IMG/VR virus record: IMGVR_UViG_3300030012_000857 | Location: 1 to 32,183 of that record | Direction: 5' to 3' (one strand) | DNA: 32,183 bases | Source of the DNA: a virus | In this document: one piece after another, positions 19,056 through 29,317 of the stretch | Numbering within the stretch: the stretch's first letter is position 1 | How the letters are laid out: each line of letters opens with the position of its first letter | Notes under the pieces: generated by a model | Told to the model about the DNA's origin: nothing | The model's database searches: none | The model's input: only the letters and a program-made list of their open reading frames with translations | Made by a program: the position numbers and the translations under genes

Positions 19056-21689
19056 ATGGCAAGTTTTGACATAAATGAAGTAGCAAGAAGAGTACAGTCT
19101 ACATCGACTGGGCAAGATGGACCATACACATTTAACTTCCAGGTCAATGCAGCAAGTGAAATACAGGTATTTAGAAACGACACACTACAGACAGAAAGCA
19201 CACACTACAATACAACTCTCAATGCAGATGGTACAGGCTCTATCACATTTATAGATACCTCTGGGAGTGGTGGGACAGATCATAGTCCAACAAGTGGGGA
19301 TGTCATTACTATCATAGGAGACCAGCCACTATCAAGGACCACAGTCTTTGCTACAGGTTCTGTCAATCAACCAGCTACGCTAGAGACAGAGTTTGACAAC
19401 GTAGTCATAAGACAACAACAGCTCAAAGAGATGATGGACAGGTCCATACAACTCAAAGCATCAACAAGACGTACAGTTACAGGCACAGGCACTTCTGGTC
19501 CACTACAGTTCCCTTACGATGATACAGCCTCAAACAATGCAAGTAAGGTTATAGCTTATGACAGCAATGGTACATCACTAGAGCTTGGCCCAACAACAGC
19601 CAATCTGACTACACTAGCAGGTATTGCAAGTGATATAAGCACAGTCGCAGGTATCTCAAGCAATGTTACAAGTGTCGCAGGTAATGCAACCAACATCAAT
19701 ACTGTAGCTGGTATCTCAAGCAACATCACAACAGTTGCAGGGATATCAAGTAACGTAACCACAGTAGCAGGTATCAGTTCTGCTGTATCTACAGTAGCCT
19801 CTGCAAACTCAAACATATCTACAGTTGCTAGTGCTATCTCAAATGTAAACACAGTTGCTGGTAGCATATCAAATGTAAACACGACAGCAGGTAGTATCTC
19901 AAACGTCAATACAGTTGCAGGTTCTATATCTAATGTGAATACAGTTGCATCAAATGTAACTGATGTAAACAGCTTTGCAGAGAGATACAGAATAGGTAGC
20001 TCAGATCCTAGCTCTAATAATGACGCAGGGGACCTGTTCTTCAACACCACAAGCAATACACTGAAGTTCTTTGATGGTAGCTCTTTCAATGCCATTACCT
20101 CTGGTGTAGCTGATAGCGAAGTAACTACAGCAAAGATAGCTGATAGTGCAGTAACCACAGCAAAGATAGCAGATACTGCTGTAAGCACAGCGAAGATTGC
20201 AGACAATGCTGTAACTACAGCCAAGATAAATGCAGATGCAATCACAGGTGCTAAGATAGCAGATGACGCTATCAACAGCGAACACTACACAGATGGCTCT
20301 ATTGACACAGCACACATAGCAGATAACCAGATAACAAACGCTAAGATGGCAGATGATAGTGTGGGTTCAGCAGAGTTGATTGACAACTCGGTTGGAGCAG
20401 CAGCACTCAACATATCTGGCAATGGATCAAGTGGGCAAATGATTGTGTCTGATGCAGATGGTTCGTTCTCATATGCAGACCAACCTAGTGGTGGTGGATT
20501 TAGTTTGGCATCAGCCTTATCTGGTACAACCCCTACTATCAACTGGTCAAGTGCGACTGCTTTCAGCCACACCCTTTCTGGCGATACAACCTACAGCTTT
20601 TCTAATGTGCCAAGTGGAGGAGAGATAGAATTGTTCTTAAAAAATGTAGGTAAGTCTATGGACATACTTACCATGAAACCTGCAACAGATGAAAACATAA
20701 GTAGCACTGCATCTACTGGTGGGTGTTTTGGTTCTTGGTTCAACAATGATGGCAGTCGTTGGTATGTAACTGACAACACCACAAACAACCCAATACATGA
20801 GTTCAATCTTAGCACCAACTATGATATATCGACAGCTAGTCATTCACGCTCAACTCCTGCTAGTAGTTATCCAAACACACTACGTTATTCTGGTGAGTTT
20901 AATGGTGATGGCACTAAGTTGATTGGCTACAAATCAGACCTTGTAGAACATACTTTATCCTCAGCATATGATATTTCTAGTCTTAGCACTAGTGCCAATC
21001 ATACTGTAGATGTTGATGCACTATTCCAAGCTAGTGGAGGTGGTGATTCTGTAACAGGTTTTGGTGGTGGTACCATTAGATTTAACAATGATGGTACACG
21101 TTTGTTTATCTCACAAAGAGATGTAGCAGATGATGAAGTGCCAAGAGCAATAGTCGTAAAATTATCTACAGCTTATGATATTGACTCAACTCTTACTGTT
21201 GAAAGTGAGTGGTATGGCACACCACAAAATGATGGACTTGGTACAACTGGTGGTAAACTGACAACTGTATTATCTTATGATGGTACAACAATAGTATGTG
21301 CAGAACATAATGATGCAGCAGCATCGACTGGTCATGCAGTATTTTGGCATTACAATTTAACAACTCCGTGGGATTTATCAAGTGCAAGATTTGTAGGTAG
21401 TAGAAAATTGGACTTAGCAAATTCAAATGCAACTGGTATTGAAAACTTACATATTACACCAGATGGCAAGTTTATGTATTTCACAGAGTTCCAAACATCA
21501 AATGCCTCAAACACATTATTTCAAAACCATGATATACAAGGTGATTATAAAGTTACTTTCCCAAGTGGTGTAACCACATTACCTGCATCATTTGGTGATG
21601 GCGAGGACCCAACTACTACTAGCTATCTAAGATTAGTCAGCCTAGATGGCAGTAATGTTCTGATAACTGACCATAAAGAGATACTATAA
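19056..21689 (+). CDS. Tail fibre, T7 gp17-like anchor with repeats and propeller-like tip
   Basis: An 877-residue fibre built in blocks. Residues 1-165 form the T7 gp17-type anchor (PYTFNFQVNAASEIQVFRND and TTVFATGSVNQPATLETEFD). Residues about 185-308 are some twelve ten-residue repeats of the type VAGISSNVTT, later VAGSISNVNT. About 350-450 is a second repeat set around TAKIADSAVT. After a short linker, about 555-860 contains five copies of a blade-like motif: FNNDGSRWYV, FNGDGTKLIG, FNNDGTRLFI, LSYDGTTIVC, ITPDGKFMYF, spaced roughly 60 residues apart as in a beta-propeller. The tip is the likely receptor-binding part. A ribosome-binding site (AGGAG) precedes the start, and the stop overlaps the next gene. 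Confidence 0.9.
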   Translation: MASFDINEVARRVQSTSTGQDGPYTFNFQVNAASEIQVFRNDTLQTESTHYNTTLNADGTGSITFIDTSGSGGTDHSPTSGDVITIIGDQPLSRTTVFATGSVNQPATLETEFDNVVIRQQQLKEMMDRSIQLKASTRRTVTGTGTSGPLQFPYDDTASNNASKVIAYDSNGTSLELGPTTANLTTLAGIASDISTVAGISSNVTSVAGNATNINTVAGISSNITTVAGISSNVTTVAGISSAVSTVASANSNISTVASAISNVNTVAGSISNVNTTAGSISNVNTVAGSISNVNTVASNVTDVNSFAERYRIGSSDPSSNNDAGDLFFNTTSNTLKFFDGSSFNAITSGVADSEVTTAKIADSAVTTAKIADTAVSTAKIADNAVTTAKINADAITGAKIADDAINSEHYTDGSIDTAHIADNQITNAKMADDSVGSAELIDNSVGAAALNISGNGSSGQMIVSDADGSFSYADQPSGGGFSLASALSGTTPTINWSSATAFSHTLSGDTTYSFSNVPSGGEIELFLKNVGKSMDILTMKPATDENISSTASTGGCFGSWFNNDGSRWYVTDNTTNNPIHEFNLSTNYDISTASHSRSTPASSYPNTLRYSGEFNGDGTKLIGYKSDLVEHTLSSAYDISSLSTSANHTVDVDALFQASGGGDSVTGFGGGTIRFNNDGTRLFISQRDVADDEVPRAIVVKLSTAYDIDSTLTVESEWYGTPQNDGLGTTGGKLTTVLSYDGTTIVCAEHNDAAASTGHAVFWHYNLTTPWDLSSARFVGSRKLDLANSNATGIENLHITPDGKFMYFTEFQTSNASNTLFQNHDIQGDYKVTFPSGVTTLPASFGDGEDPTTTSYLRLVSLDGSNVLITDHKEIL

Positions 21690-25240: not shown

Positions 25241-25654
25241 TCAAGCCTCCTTTTTGTCAGCCCACTCAGATGCAAACTCAACCATATCGATCATAACCCT
25301 CTCAACTTCCTCCCAATGCTCATTGTAACGACCATCACCAAATTGATAGGCATCTTCATGTGCTGGGTGGTTTTCGTTAGCGATAGCAGCAGATATATAA
25401 TCTTCCCACTCTTGACTCATATACACCCATTTACCTATAGGACTGACGTGTCCATAAGTTTGCAGATCATAACCCAGGCCTAGGTCTGCGTATTTTTTCA
25501 TCAGTCTTTTAACTCTGCTATACGCAGCATTACTCCTGGCTCTCTCTTGTCGTTTACGTCTTACTTCTTTAGGATCCTCTGGTAATTCAAACCTGAACAT
25601 ATTTTGAAGACGTGCTATGACTGCATCCAGTTCGGCATCAGTTTTTTTAGTCAT
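25241..25654 (-). CDS. Hypothetical soluble protein, 137 aa
   Basis: A 137-residue protein of helical character, starting with MTKKTDAELDAVIARLQNMF, a basic middle (KEVRRKRQERARSNAAYSRV) and a more mixed C-terminal half (SPIGKWVYMSQEWEDYISAA, ending EFASEWADKKEA). No family recognised. I start it at 25654 because AAAGGATA lies eight bases upstream; an in-frame ATG at 25684 lies within ten bases of the promoter's expected start site and lacks a ribosome-binding site. It has its own sigma70-type promoter (25691-25719) and stops before the bidirectional terminator, so it is probably expressed as a single gene, perhaps early. Confidence 0.75.
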   Translation of the reverse strand: MTKKTDAELDAVIARLQNMFRFELPEDPKEVRRKRQERARSNAAYSRVKRLMKKYADLGLGYDLQTYGHVSPIGKWVYMSQEWEDYISAAIANENHPAHEDAYQFGDGRYNEHWEEVERVMIDMVEFASEWADKKEA

Positions 25655-25690
25655 GATAATATCCTTTCTTTTATTTTTTATCATTTCAGT

Positions 25691-25719
25691 ATCATATATC
25701 CTTTTGATATCAATGTCAA
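25691..25719 (-). promoter_or_regulatory. Sigma70-type promoter, leftward
   Basis: Read on the minus strand, TTGACA (25719-25714), a 17-bp spacer (25713-25697) and TATGAT (25696-25691). Matches the consensus in six of six and five of six positions. It drives the leftward gene starting at 25654. Confidence 0.85.
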
Positions 25720-25737
25720 GAGTTTTTTTTTGAGGGG

Positions 25738-25779
25738 TTGTTTGGAAATGACAAAAATGTTACGATAAATCAGTAACAT
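25738..25779 (+). promoter_or_regulatory. Rightward promoter with inverted-repeat operator
   Basis: TTGTTT (25738-25743), a 17-bp spacer and TACGAT (25761-25766) with a TGT extended -10 directly before it. An inverted repeat, ATGTTAC at 25757-25763 and GTAACAT at 25773-25779, covers the -10 and the expected transcription start, so a repressor could sit there; it can also fold as a hairpin in the leader. The ribosome-binding site AGGAGG follows at 25780. Serves the metallophosphoesterase at 25791. Confidence 0.6.
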
Positions 25780-25790
25780 AGGAGGATGTT

Positions 25791-26489
25791 ATGGCAAACA
25801 AATGCGTGCTAGTAATAAGCGATCTACATATACCTTATCATCACAAAGACTCTTTTGCCTTTCTTAAAGAGGTAAAGAAAGTATTTCAACCTGATACCAT
25901 CATCAATATAGGAGACTTGTTAGACTTTCATGCTATCTCGATGCATGATCACGATCCTGACTTGCCAAGCCCTGGTAATGAGTTGTCAACAGCTCGTCAA
26001 TACGTCAAAGAACTAGAGTCTATATTCCCAGATGTGACTGAGGTACACAGTAACCATAGCTCTTTAGTGTATCGCAGAGCAATCAAGTATGGAATGTCTA
26101 GAGAGTTTCTTAGGCCATACTCAGAGTTCCTGGGAACTAAAAAATGGAAATGGGTAGATGATCTGACGCTCAGTTGTGGGCAGCAAAGAGTGTTCTTTAC
26201 ACATGGCAAGGCTGCCGATGTGTTAAAAGTATCTCAGACTATGGGTATGTCTACAGTTCAGGGCCATTACCATACCAAGTTTTCTATTGGATACTGGGCA
26301 AATCCAGATGAACTGTACTTCGGTATGCAGGTTGGCTGTCTTATCAATCAAAAATCTTTGGCGTTCAGCTATGCTAAAAACTTTTCCACAAGATTTATTT
26401 TGGGGTGTGGTATTGTTATTGATGGTGTCCCACGCTTGTTGCCCATGGTATTGAACAACAAGGGGGACTGGATTGGGAAGGTAGTTTAG
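25791..26489 (+). CDS. Calcineurin-like metallophosphoesterase
   Basis: A 232-residue phosphoesterase of the metal-dependent type. Visible metal ligands are D11 and H13 (SDLH), D42 (GDLLD), N88-H89 in the SNHSS stretch, H138 (FTHGK) and H159/H161 (GHYHT). The usual GNH(E/D) motif is altered to SNHS, which may affect substrate choice rather than the metal site. Phage members act on nucleotides, phosphorylated DNA ends or RNA; the substrate here cannot be told. It is a stand-alone gene with its own promoter and a strong AGGAGG ribosome-binding site, and its stop codon overlaps that of the leftward ERF gene. Confidence 0.88.
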   Translation: MANKCVLVISDLHIPYHHKDSFAFLKEVKKVFQPDTIINIGDLLDFHAISMHDHDPDLPSPGNELSTARQYVKELESIFPDVTEVHSNHSSLVYRRAIKYGMSREFLRPYSEFLGTKKWKWVDDLTLSCGQQRVFFTHGKAADVLKVSQTMGMSTVQGHYHTKFSIGYWANPDELYFGMQVGCLINQKSLAFSYAKNFSTRFILGCGIVIDGVPRLLPMVLNNKGDWIGKVV

Positions 26490-27214
26490 GGACCAAGCCT
26501 CGCAGTTTTGGTTTCTTCTCCTGCTGCTTTTTGTAGAGCGAGATATATTTTTCCACCCTCATCTAGACAATCTTTGTATGGGTTTTGTTGCCTAAGTTTA
26601 TTTATTTCAACAAATTGCTTGAGACCTTCAAAATCTTTTGAGTCTAGCTTTTCTTGTGCTATGTCTTTGAACTGCTCAAAATCATTTTCTGTATCTATCA
26701 TTTGAAAGTCATTCAAATATTTTTCAGCCACCTTTGCCCACTTGCCATGAGGGGAAACCTTCGTAGCAACATTATGTATTGGTGCCTTGCTTGAGTCAAA
26801 CAATGGTTCTTGTGCTGCAAAATTACCATCATCATCAGAGCATAAGCCATAGAACGCTTGCAAAGCATATCTTTTTGAGTAGGTTATACCACTACCCATA
26901 CTCTGAGGATTGTTTGGGTCCTTCATTCGTATAGGGCAAGGACTTTTTCTAGTTTCATTTGATGGTACATGGGTTACAGTAGTCATTACAACTTGTAATA
27001 CCTGCCCACCTATCTCAATCAGATCTAGTGGCTGACTATACACTAATCCAAATTGATTGCCCTCATCACACGCCCTCATAACATCCTCTAGAGATGCGTA
27101 TTGATTTTTGAAGTGTGGGTTTTTACTGCTTTTAGTTGCTTGAACTTTTAGTTTCTGAAACTCAAGCATTGCCTCATCAAATGTTTTTGGCATTTTGTTA
27201 CTATTCTCTGTCAT
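26486..27214 (-). CDS. ERF-family single-strand annealing protein
   Basis: A 242-residue recombinase of the ERF family. The N-terminal core (TFDEAMLEFQKLKVQATKSS, then FKNQYASLEDVMRA) and the signature MGSGITYSKRYALQAFYGL at about residues 106-124 followed by SDDDGN are characteristic. ERF proteins anneal single-stranded DNA and help circularise or recombine phage genomes. A C-terminal region (about 150-242) contains a charged helix and may bind a partner. It is the last gene of the leftward operon starting at 27916, and its start lies 14 bases inside the previous gene. It probably works with the nuclease (2519-2839) and host enzymes. Confidence 0.9.
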   Translation of the reverse strand: MTENSNKMPKTFDEAMLEFQKLKVQATKSSKNPHFKNQYASLEDVMRACDEGNQFGLVYSQPLDLIEIGGQVLQVVMTTVTHVPSNETRKSPCPIRMKDPNNPQSMGSGITYSKRYALQAFYGLCSDDDGNFAAQEPLFDSSKAPIHNVATKVSPHGKWAKVAEKYLNDFQMIDTENDFEQFKDIAQEKLDSKDFEGLKQFVEINKLRQQNPYKDCLDEGGKIYLALQKAAGEETKTARLGP

Positions 27215-27515
27215 TTGCTATTCCCTCTGCTTTCTCAAATGCAAGTGCCAGGGCAGTTTCAGAACGCCTGACACGACTGTTAATATTTGGTGTTAAAAAT
27301 TTTAGTTGTTGTTGTATGTTGGTAAGTACATCATACTCAACATCGCTCAACTCCATAGTATCAAGCCTCAAAGACTTTATACAATCGCTGCAAATCTCAA
27401 TCTGCACCCACAGCTCAGATACTTTACGGAGGGGGTCCACCTGGTTATTAGTGAACTCATCCCCCATTTTCTTGGCCTGATCTATGACACTATCATTAGT
27501 AGTCATTGTGTTCAT
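27201..27515 (-). CDS. Hypothetical helical protein, 104 aa
   Basis: A 104-residue helical, acidic protein (DQAKKMGDEFTNNQVDPLRK, LSDVEYDVLTNIQQQLKF). No family recognised; it lies between a small acidic protein and the ERF gene, overlapping both. GGAGAGG a few bases upstream supports the ATG at 27515 over the one at 27506. In ERF-type operons of other phages, small helical proteins in this place sometimes support recombination, but no evidence for that is visible here. Confidence 0.75.
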   Translation of the reverse strand: MNTMTTNDSVIDQAKKMGDEFTNNQVDPLRKVSELWVQIEICSDCIKSLRLDTMELSDVEYDVLTNIQQQLKFLTPNINSRVRRSETALALAFEKAEGIANDRE

Positions 27516-27753
27516 AGCCCTCTCCTATTGCTTGTTCTTGATACTTAGCCCACTTATCAGACCACATATCACTTAGCATATCCTCGATATATACTTCAGG
27601 GTCCTCATCTTGTGGTATGAACGTGAGTAAATCTTTGTACCTGTCCATAGTTTGCATGAACTCGCCTAGACTTTCACAATTTCCTATTTCTTTATCTGCT
27701 ATTTCCCAATAGCGATCTTCTTGTTCCATTAGATAGTTTTTATATTTACCCAT
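27496..27753 (-). CDS. Hypothetical acidic protein, 85 aa
   Basis: An 85-residue acidic protein rich in Tyr, Trp and Glu (DRYWEIADKEIGNCESLGEF, then DEDPEVYIEDMLSDMWSDKW). No family recognised. Preceded by GAAAGGAAAATACA, the same leader type found in the other leftward genes. It overlaps the coiled-coil gene before it and the 104-residue gene after it. Confidence 0.75.
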   Translation of the reverse strand: MGKYKNYLMEQEDRYWEIADKEIGNCESLGEFMQTMDRYKDLLTFIPQDEDPEVYIEDMLSDMWSDKWAKYQEQAIGEGYEHNDY

Positions 27754-27916
27754 TGTATTTTCCTTTCAATCTTTCTATGGTTTCGTTTAGCTTTCTGACA
27801 TCCTCATTGAACTGCTCTAGCTTTTCCCAAAACTGTTCCTCAAGTTCGTCTAGCTTTGTATCAGAATGCTGCAAGTTATTTACTACAACTTCTAGTGGCA
27901 TTTTATTAACTGTCAT
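27746..27916 (-). CDS. Small coiled-coil protein, 56 aa
   Basis: A 56-residue protein with nearly continuous heptad-like helix (NNLQHSDTKLDELEEQFWEK, then FNEDVRKLNETIERLKGKY). First gene of the leftward recombination operon; start at 27916, with GAAAGGATT upstream, about 41 bases from the expected transcription start of the promoter at 27964-27992. Likely forms dimers or trimers. No function recognised. Confidence 0.7.
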   Translation of the reverse strand: MTVNKMPLEVVVNNLQHSDTKLDELEEQFWEKLEQFNEDVRKLNETIERLKGKYNG

Positions 27917-27947
27917 CTATATAATCCTTTCATTTATTTTATAGTTG

Positions 27948-27976
27948 TTGACATTTGTATATCATTAAAATACTAT
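27948..27976 (+). promoter_or_regulatory. Sigma70-type promoter, rightward (initiator operon)
   Basis: TTGACA (27948-27953), a 17-bp spacer and TACTAT (27971-27976). Serves the ribbon-helix-helix, DUF6378-like and initiator-like genes. It occupies the same DNA as the leftward promoter 27964-27992, so the two cannot bind polymerase at the same time. Confidence 0.85.
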
Positions 27977-27992
27977 TTTGAGATAATGTCAA
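27964..27992 (-). promoter_or_regulatory. Sigma70-type promoter, leftward (ERF operon)
   Basis: Read on the minus strand, TTGACA (27992-27987), a 17-bp spacer and TTTAAT (27969-27964). Its -35 end together with the rightward promoter's makes a perfect eight-bp inverted repeat, TTGACATT at 27948-27955 and AATGTCAA at 27985-27992. These repeats may also be the binding site of the regulator coded at 28020. Confidence 0.8.
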
Positions 27993-28019
27993 TATCAAAA
28001 TAATATAGGAGATAAAAAA

Positions 28020-28220
28020 ATGGCACAAAAATCTTGTTTGTTAAGGCTACCAGAGGAATTGGTAGATAAATTAGATCACCAGGCAAGGCTAGAACACACC
28101 TCTCGTGTGGGTTTAGTCCATAATATTTTAGAAATGGGGCTGCCACTTAGGCGAAAATACACGATCAACTCCCCAGAGATACAGCAACTAATAAATGGAG
28201 CAAGGTTACATGGAAAATAA
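28020..28220 (+). CDS. Ribbon-helix-helix DNA-binding regulator, 66 aa
   Basis: A 66-residue protein with a clear Arc/CopG-type fold: a beta strand (KSCLLRLP, residues 4-11), helix A (EELVDKLDHQAR) and helix B (RVGLVHNILEMGL). Such proteins bind DNA as dimers through the paired strands and commonly repress their own promoter. The C-terminal 25 residues (KYTINSPEIQQLINGARL) are extra and could mediate tetramers. It is the first gene after the overlapping divergent promoters and is the best candidate to regulate them. AGGAGA lies about seven bases before the start. The stop overlaps the next gene. Confidence 0.85.
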   Translation: MAQKSCLLRLPEELVDKLDHQARLEHTSRVGLVHNILEMGLPLRRKYTINSPEIQQLINGARLHGK

Positions 28221-28560
28221 TGATGTACTAGATATCTTAGAGCAGGCAAAAGAAATGTTCCAGGATAGAAATAAGAAGTATGGCAGCGTTGACGAAATGT
28301 TTAGGGCCATGGCAAAACGTATGAGCCTCAGCTCTCATATCAATGTAACGCCATATCAAGCTTGCCAGGCTATGATAGATACCAAACAAGCACGACTAGA
28401 CCTACACCCTAGCGATGACTCGTTTGTTGACGCTATTGTATACATGGCGATTTCATATTACTTATGGAAAAAGCAAAAGAAAAATGGTAAAAAAATACCA
28501 GACTTCAGTCAAGTATTAGACACTCCACCAAGCGAATATTTGAAACAATCTCAACAATAA
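28210..28560 (+). CDS. DUF6378-like phage protein, 116 aa
   Basis: A 116-residue helical protein. The opening ILEQAKEMFQDRNKKYGSVD, then VTPYQACQAMIDTKQARLDL and DDSFVDAIVYMAIS match, from memory, the phage family DUF6378, whose KxxRL...DD..VDA.GY pattern is distantly like MazG-type helical nucleotide hydrolases. Function unproven. I start at 28210 (AAGG upstream), inside the end of the regulator gene; an in-frame ATG at 28195 is less likely. Confidence 0.75.
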   Translation: MENNDVLDILEQAKEMFQDRNKKYGSVDEMFRAMAKRMSLSSHINVTPYQACQAMIDTKQARLDLHPSDDSFVDAIVYMAISYYLWKKQKKNGKKIPDFSQVLDTPPSEYLKQSQQ

Positions 28561-28567
28561 ATGACGT

Positions 28568-29317
28568 ATGACTGCGAACAAATATTCAAATGGCAATCCA
28601 AAAGTCCCCTCGATATGGAGCGTGATCCCTAGTAAAAGGGTGGTTGATATACGCAGCAAAAAAAATCCGACCACCTTTCTACTATTTTGTTTGCTTGCAG
28701 CGTACACAAATAGAGCTGGCACTAGTTTCCCATCCCAGGCATTACTCAGTAAACAGCTTGGCATCAGCGTGCAGGCTGTCAGCTATCATATTAGGAAGTT
28801 AATCAGCTGGGATTATATCAGATACGCAAAAAAGCATAGTGGATTGAAAGGTAATAAATATTATATGGTATTTGATGAAGATATTAGTGAGGATGAGGCA
28901 CGTTCCGTACAAACCAGCGAAACAATATCAGAGATTGCTGAAGTAGTACCACCTGAATATAAAGAAGGGGCTAAGACTATGGAAAAAAATAAATTCGATA
29001 CCAGTTCTGACGCTAGAAAAATATGTATGCAGTATAGAAAAATAGTCGAGGAAATATTTGGCCATCAAGTACAACACAAACTAGATCATGAACATTTAGT
29101 CGATACCTGGTTAAAAGATTTTAGCAAAGAATACATATTAAAAAGAATTAGAAATACCATTCAATATCGGCGTGATAATGGAAAGGATAGTATTAAATCA
29201 ATAGGCTATTTTAAAAATGTATTTGTTAAGAATGCCAATAAAAAACCCAGCTCTAAAAAAGAAGAGCTGGATCAATTACTAGGCAAATTTAAATCTAATC
29301 ACAAGATTAAATTCTAA
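28568..29317 (+). CDS. Winged-helix replication-initiator-like protein
   Basis: A 249-residue protein with an N-terminal helix-turn-helix of the HTH_36/winged type (NRAGTSFPSQALLSKQLGIS, VQAVSYHIRKL, then DYIRYAKK wing), a flexible acidic linker (about 105-140), and a helical C-terminal domain (FDTSSDARKICMQYRKIVEE; WLKDFSKEYILKRIRNTIQY) similar in layout to replisome-loading domains of lambda O or DnaD-like proteins. With no polymerase or helicase in the genome, it most likely recognises an origin and recruits the host replisome. Origin repeats are not obvious inside the gene. Its last 80 bases carry a terminator for the opposite strand. Confidence 0.75.
   Translation: MTANKYSNGNPKVPSIWSVIPSKRVVDIRSKKNPTTFLLFCLLAAYTNRAGTSFPSQALLSKQLGISVQAVSYHIRKLISWDYIRYAKKHSGLKGNKYYMVFDEDISEDEARSVQTSETISEIAEVVPPEYKEGAKTMEKNKFDTSSDARKICMQYRKIVEEIFGHQVQHKLDHEHLVDTWLKDFSKEYILKRIRNTIQYRRDNGKDSIKSIGYFKNVFVKNANKKPSSKKEELDQLLGKFKSNHKIKF
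29236..29270 (-). terminator. Leftward terminator inside the initiator gene
   Basis: Stem CCAGCTCT at 29247-29254 and AGAGCTGG at 29263-29270, an eight-bp perfect pair with an A-rich loop; read leftward it is followed by GTTTTTTATT, the structure of an intrinsic terminator. It ends the leftward small-gene operon just past 29307 while lying in the coding sequence of the rightward initiator gene. Confidence 0.85.

Follow-up and report, generated by a model that had tools for sequence, protein, structure and literature searches.

The divergent intergenic region of 103 bp at positions 27917 to 28019 raises the question of how two oppositely oriented gene sets are transcribed from so short a segment, and whether they are alternatives, as an earlier note on this DNA had proposed by describing the site as a switch between replication and recombination. 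The window examined here is the whole stretch of 32,183 bases, an entire virus record of an uncultured marine tailed phage. Judged by its terminase, the nearest named relative is Methylophilales phage MEP301 (66% identity), and the phosphoesterase gene region matches pelagiphages at ~70%.

Two predicted promoters in the same DNA

Near-consensus -35/-10 pairs are present on both strands within the same DNA, as expected of overlapping divergent sigma70-type promoters. The rightward promoter (27948 to 27976, plus strand) consists of the -35 box TTGACA (27948 to 27953), a 17-bp spacer (27954 to 27970), and the -10 box TACTAT (27971 to 27976); the leftward promoter (27964 to 27992, minus strand) consists of TTGACA (27992 to 27987), likewise a 17-bp spacer, and TTTAAT (27969 to 27964). 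With the usual distance of 7 bases past the -10 box, transcription is predicted to start at about 27983 to the right and at about 27957 to the left, i.e., 26 bp apart. The DNA common to both promoters comprises the 45 bp from 27948 to 27992, with the -35 boxes on the outside and the -10 boxes adjacent in the centre, and the promoters face away from each other. The overlap, described before, is read directly from the sequence, and it follows from this geometry that two polymerases cannot sit there together, as is documented for such promoters (PMC12825309, PMC4207663). At the -35 ends, TTGACATT (27948 to 27955) and AATGTCAA (27985 to 27992) form perfect 8-bp inverted copies with 29 bp between them.

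A consensus scanner detected the site on the plus strand and skipped that on the minus strand because its -10 box has no A at position 2. TTTAAT thereby lacks -11A, which is among the two promoter positions with the highest conservation (PMC10268837); since this box is, in addition, not conserved among relatives, the leftward start is less certain. An alternative leftward promoter (27970 to 27998, minus strand), composed of TTGATA (27998 to 27993), a 17-bp spacer, and TAGTAT (27975 to 27970), overlaps the rightward -10 box, matches the consensus at 9 of 12 positions, and has a score of 6.9.

Matches to the sigma70 consensus are frequent in A+T-rich DNA, and both pairs might be chance matches of this sort. 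Indeed, 38 promoter-like sites were returned by the scanner between positions 20000 and 32183, fewer than the 50 in shuffled sequence, and single matches therefore mean little. The joint occurrence of the two sites, however, is a different matter. The frequencies of the sigma70 weight matrix were typed from general knowledge, so that its scores are relative only; on this scale, the rightward site reaches 9.9, the best plus-strand score in the whole window, and the leftward site 9.8, among the three best minus-strand scores in 32 kb (9.8 versus 12.1 and 9.9). Both scores were jointly reached in 1 of 3,000 dinucleotide shuffles of the 103-bp region. The arrangement TTGACA-N29-33-TGTCAA occurs once in the window versus 0.04 times expected, and it was present in 4 of 100 shuffles.

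The strongest promoter-like site of the window, a leftward TTGACA-17-TATGAT (25719 to 25691) with a score of 12.1, is located in a second divergent intergenic region (25685 to 25790), upstream of the gene at 25241 to 25684. A search for RNA families found none.

Conservation of the promoter pair among relatives

Relatives were gathered by searches with the initiator-like protein encoded to the right of the site, with identities ranging from 100% down to about 30%; contigs with an initiator identity of 43% or more over its length and with the site covered, 21 in number, were compared, and among them this identity goes down to 44%. The perfect TTGACA...TGTCAA pair is present in all 21, in nine distinct cores and always directly upstream of the gene for the ribbon-helix-helix (RHH) protein described below; the relative loci are not mutually independent. 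The core measures 45 bp in the window type, 41 bp in L006, and 43 bp in the others, and by the same geometry the predicted starts in relatives are 28 or 30 bp apart. On the rightward side, TAnnnT is found exactly 17 bp from the -35 box in 9 of 9 distinct cores, with a product over six representatives of 1.3e-7, which overstates independence. On the leftward side, TAnnnT at a spacer of 17 is absent from all nine cores; some offer candidates at 15 or 18, others only poor ones, and the score over six representatives is weakly better than that of shuffles (p 0.07). Hence, of the promoter elements and spacing proposed for comparison among relatives, both -35 boxes and the rightward -10 box with its 17-bp spacing are kept, while the leftward -10 box and the distance between the -35 boxes are not. 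The same comparison reduces the 8-bp inverted repeat, perfect in the window, to its 6-bp hexamers.

In L002, L003, and L004, the 103-bp intergenic region carries no substitutions, as against 81, 110, and 119 differences in 1,462 bases of the flanking genes (5.5 to 8%); a recent recombinational exchange of the segment could be another source of this identity. A region free of substitutions in three diverged relatives, boxes kept across nine diverged cores, and a joint score found once in 3,000 shuffles make chance a hardly credible explanation. Judged from sequence, the pair probably represents real, conserved overlapping divergent promoters, of a kind that is already known and of which this is a new member.

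If the rightward promoter alone were real, the facing TGTCAA would be a regulator half-site or an element of the start region, and the leftward operon would start elsewhere. Such a reading agrees with the missing -11A and poor conservation of the leftward -10 box and with the presence of the alternative TTGATA-17-TAGTAT, whose -35 box is not kept in other lineages. Nevertheless, the leftward TTGACA varies no more than its rightward counterpart, and in 7 of 9 cores the best leftward site up to 115 bp from the RHH start includes it. Furthermore, differences in core length between lineages shift its position with respect to the rightward start, so that it is no fixed part of the rightward promoter. 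We regard a solitary rightward promoter as rather unlikely.

Alternatively, TTGACA...TGTCAA might serve the RHH protein or some host factor as a bipartite operator, its likeness to -35 boxes being incidental. RHH proteins bind symmetric or repeated sites, and the symmetry is perfect in the 21 relative contigs. The distance between the boxes, however, shifts by 2 and 4 bp, which would rotate the half-sites against each other and makes a single two-armed operator unlikely, whereas total lengths of 41, 43, or 45 bp fit two separate -35 elements. In addition, the conserved letters are exactly those of the -35 consensus and none beyond, the rightward -10 box lies at 17 bp in every core, and the same TTGACA recurs with a strong -10 box elsewhere in the phage (25719 to 25691). 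An operator of this kind is accordingly highly doubtful.

Among narrower operator candidates, the 8-bp inverted repeat was ruled out, as only the -35 hexamers are conserved and the arm spacing varies. An imperfect inverted repeat at 27970 to 28006 (arms 27970 to 27984 and 27992 to 28006, 13 of 15 positions paired), centred on the leftward -35 box, is a weak candidate for an RHH operator; it was equalled in 29 of 1,000 shuffles and is absent from the other lineages tested. A search for an RHH operator common to the lineages found none, and no iterons were evident near the initiator.

More distant relatives display the same RHH-initiator gene order without the TTGACA pair and with other, weaker promoter candidates; these members share another block instead, GGTCTTATATTGTTCATAT. 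In L060, L066, L075, L077, and similar loci, a conserved block, GGTCTTATAtTGTTCATAT, is located upstream of the RHH gene in the divergent region, replacing the TTGACA pair. L014, in which no RHH gene was found, carries a leftward TTGACATAAGGTTTAC-type element twice upstream of the initiator, and L175 contains a gene related to the first leftward one but no divergent promoter pair.

The RHH protein and the two gene sets

The first rightward gene (28020 to 28220, plus strand) encodes a protein of 66 residues that had been named an RHH regulator. By sequence, the assignment is not reached: the Pfam profile RHH_1 gives E 0.0075 and 16.6 bits versus a cut-off of 20.5 for the window protein, and 4 of 20 members of its family match RHH_1 at E up to 0.1. 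An RHH profile search with A1 returned close relatives only, and the RHH profile had no significant match among the sequences of solved structures. The predicted structure has a pLDDT of 87 and features helices at residues 12 to 24, 29 to 46, and 52 to 64, with an extended N-terminus preceding the first two; the monomer model assigns no strand. In Foldseek, the leading matches are mostly the RHH proteins CopG, Arc, AmrZ, TacA, and FitA, with probabilities of up to 0.99 and no E-value below 0.1, weak individual E-values being expected for so short a chain. The fold thus predicted places the product in the RHH (Arc/MetJ/CopG) superfamily, and the naming stands on this fold, the Pfam match being sub-threshold. 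The protein is a probable autoregulator.

The RHH gene is followed by genes for a DUF6378 protein (28195 to 28560, plus strand), the start of which overlaps the RHH gene, and for an HTH_36 protein resembling phage replication initiators (28568 to 29317, plus strand), which matches HTH_36 and phage replication-initiation families. To the left, in order, are genes for a small coiled-coil-like protein (27746 to 27916, minus strand), for two proteins without assigned function (27496 to 27753 and 27201 to 27515, minus strand), and for an ERF-family single-strand annealing protein (26486 to 27214, minus strand; Pfam ERF, E 4.1e-20; PHROG 155, E 1e-27). Within each set, the open reading frames overlap or abut in an operon-like manner. 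The initiator gene ends with a terminator-like hairpin (29273 to 29244, minus strand), close to the junction between the rightward operon and the leftward genes that follow from 29307. Between 29300 and 31800, the G+C content drops to mostly 20 to 35%, compared with about 40% before, and small leftward genes, including a GP88-family gene, are located there.

Of 55 loci that extend far enough upstream of the initiator (13 others are too short), 48 have an RHH gene there on the strand of the initiator and 7 have none; the arrangement in the 48 is the gene order of a copG-repB-like operon. The RHH gene faces a leftward open reading frame in 43 of 44 loci with room for one, a count made on mechanically called frames in loci that overlap in ancestry. 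The right side, i.e., RHH protein plus initiator, is constant within the clade, and the left side is variable. ERF is found in L011, L034, and L038 and, with a further gene, in L008, whereas L060 has a serine recombinase and the left side of L006 is limited to two small genes, with no recombinase among them. Lineages also differ in the gene between those for the RHH protein and the initiator, DUF6378 being present in the window type and L006 and DUF3310 in others (L033:974-1249; L034:3205-3489). In L007, L008, L009, and L012, as compared with L011, L033, and L034, the first leftward gene is replaced by an unrelated one that still starts with MTVN, with the promoter region kept; the pattern suggests a recombination joint located at the start codon.

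These gene contents bear directly on the proposed switch, in which the promoters would exclude each other and the RHH protein would tip the balance to either the initiator or the ERF operon. In its favour, profile matches in the window place the initiator-like gene on one predicted transcript and ERF on the other, and steric exclusion forbids simultaneous occupancy (PMC12825309). The opposition of initiator and recombinase is, however, not conserved among relatives, as L006 and L060 illustrate. Moreover, the two promoter scores are nearly equal, whereas for overlapping promoters to act as a switch, their basal strengths are said to have to differ and the regulator to affect the two in strongly different ways (Bendtsen et al., cited in PMC4207663). 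Five tested bidirectional promoters of Escherichia coli displayed competition solely under strong activation of one side (PMC12825309). The switch interpretation is not supported and is considered very improbable. Since the strengths look equal, we prefer a reading in which both gene sets are expressed early and at the same time and the RHH protein would turn off both.

A proposed early control site and known systems

The phage had also been considered to be without a polymerase of its own. In agreement with this, no family A DNA polymerase was found in it; a search for a T7-type RNA polymerase gave no match, but its positive controls were silent as well, so that it speaks neither way. No tyrosine-family integrase was found in the phage, and a search for the initiator in bacterial and archaeal genomes found none, providing neither prophage nor host evidence. 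Among cultured phages, searches with the initiator and the RHH protein returned two weak Gordonia matches or none.

Sequence, gene order, conservation, and the predicted RHH fold form the established part of the picture. The explanation that we favour, with moderate confidence and on the grounds of sequence, structural model, and analogy, is that of overlapping divergent host-sigma70 promoters that are both early and concurrent, with the RHH protein as autorepressor of the RHH-initiator operon. We infer that both promoters fire, that they do so early, and that the RHH protein binds at the site and represses. Specifically, the housekeeping (sigma70-type) polymerase of the host would occupy positions 27948 to 27992 one molecule at a time, producing a rightward transcript for the RHH protein, the DUF6378 protein, and the initiator-like protein and a leftward transcript for three small proteins and the ERF annealing protein. 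Both transcripts would probably be early and made concurrently in the infected cell rather than either/or; at an early stage of infection, the phage probably requires the replication module and the recombination module alike. As the RHH protein, the earliest rightward product, accumulates, it would most likely bind the A+T-rich region and silence its own operon and probably the leftward operon too, thereby capping the dose of initiator as CopG does in copG-repB.

A stronger variant, which we judge unlikely, holds that the perfect, mirror-placed -35 boxes are selected as a pair: by recruiting polymerase strongly to one site from either side, they would let polymerase competition balance the dose of initiator against that of the early genes to the left, and the RHH protein would turn off both; were it true, the site would be a compact early-gene governor across an uncultured clade of marine phages. 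If concurrent expression under RHH autorepression is correct, it illustrates how small marine phages seemingly without their own polymerase can express genes for replication and recombination by means of the host polymerase from a single control site of 45 bp, together with an RHH protein linked to the initiator. No new principle is required. The module, in which the genes for RHH protein and initiator lie opposite a leftward operon of variable content, is found repeatedly in the uncultured clade and offers a simple natural test case for polymerase competition at overlapping promoters.

MEP301 (PMC8024684) resembles the phage in its terminase, phosphoesterase, and ERF relative, with no RNA or DNA polymerase gene reported. 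It differs in that it shows no TTGACA/TGTCAA pair, no RHH gene by motif scan, and no match to the RHH protein or initiator of the window. Bidirectional promoters with a shared -10 element (PMC12825309, PMC10268837) likewise accommodate two exclusive polymerase orientations in one short segment; their starts, however, are 7 to 25 bp (mostly 18) apart, and one -10 element serves both strands, whereas the phage site has neighbouring -10 boxes and predicted starts 26 bp apart. It therefore falls outside the Warman/Grainger-type definition (starts 7 to 25 bp apart, reciprocally overlapping -10 elements; PMC10268837); if the weaker alternative leftward site were used, the distance would be 20 bp.

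In the Pc/Pr pair of pLS20 (PMC4207663), opposite promoters likewise lie in the same DNA, polymerases exclude each other, and one transcript encodes a DNA-binding regulator. The plasmid pair, however, has unequal strengths, the regulator Rco, and DNA looping, whereas the phage site has similar predicted strengths, an RHH regulator, and replication and recombination cargo.

Arc and Mnt of the P22 immunity I region are RHH repressors acting at divergent phage promoters. This region (background in PMC2629481) thus shares with the present site a phage RHH protein at divergent promoters, but P22 is temperate and the target is an antirepressor gene, whereas the phage studied here has no detected tyrosine-family integrase and its neighbouring genes serve replication and recombination. 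Finally, in pMV158-family plasmids, the RHH protein CopG represses the copG-repB operon (PMC6607859). While CopG is a plasmid protein and the phage has an additional gene in between, an overlapping divergent promoter, an HTH_36-type initiator, and a putative repression, the two operons have in common that an RHH gene lies upstream of the replication initiator.
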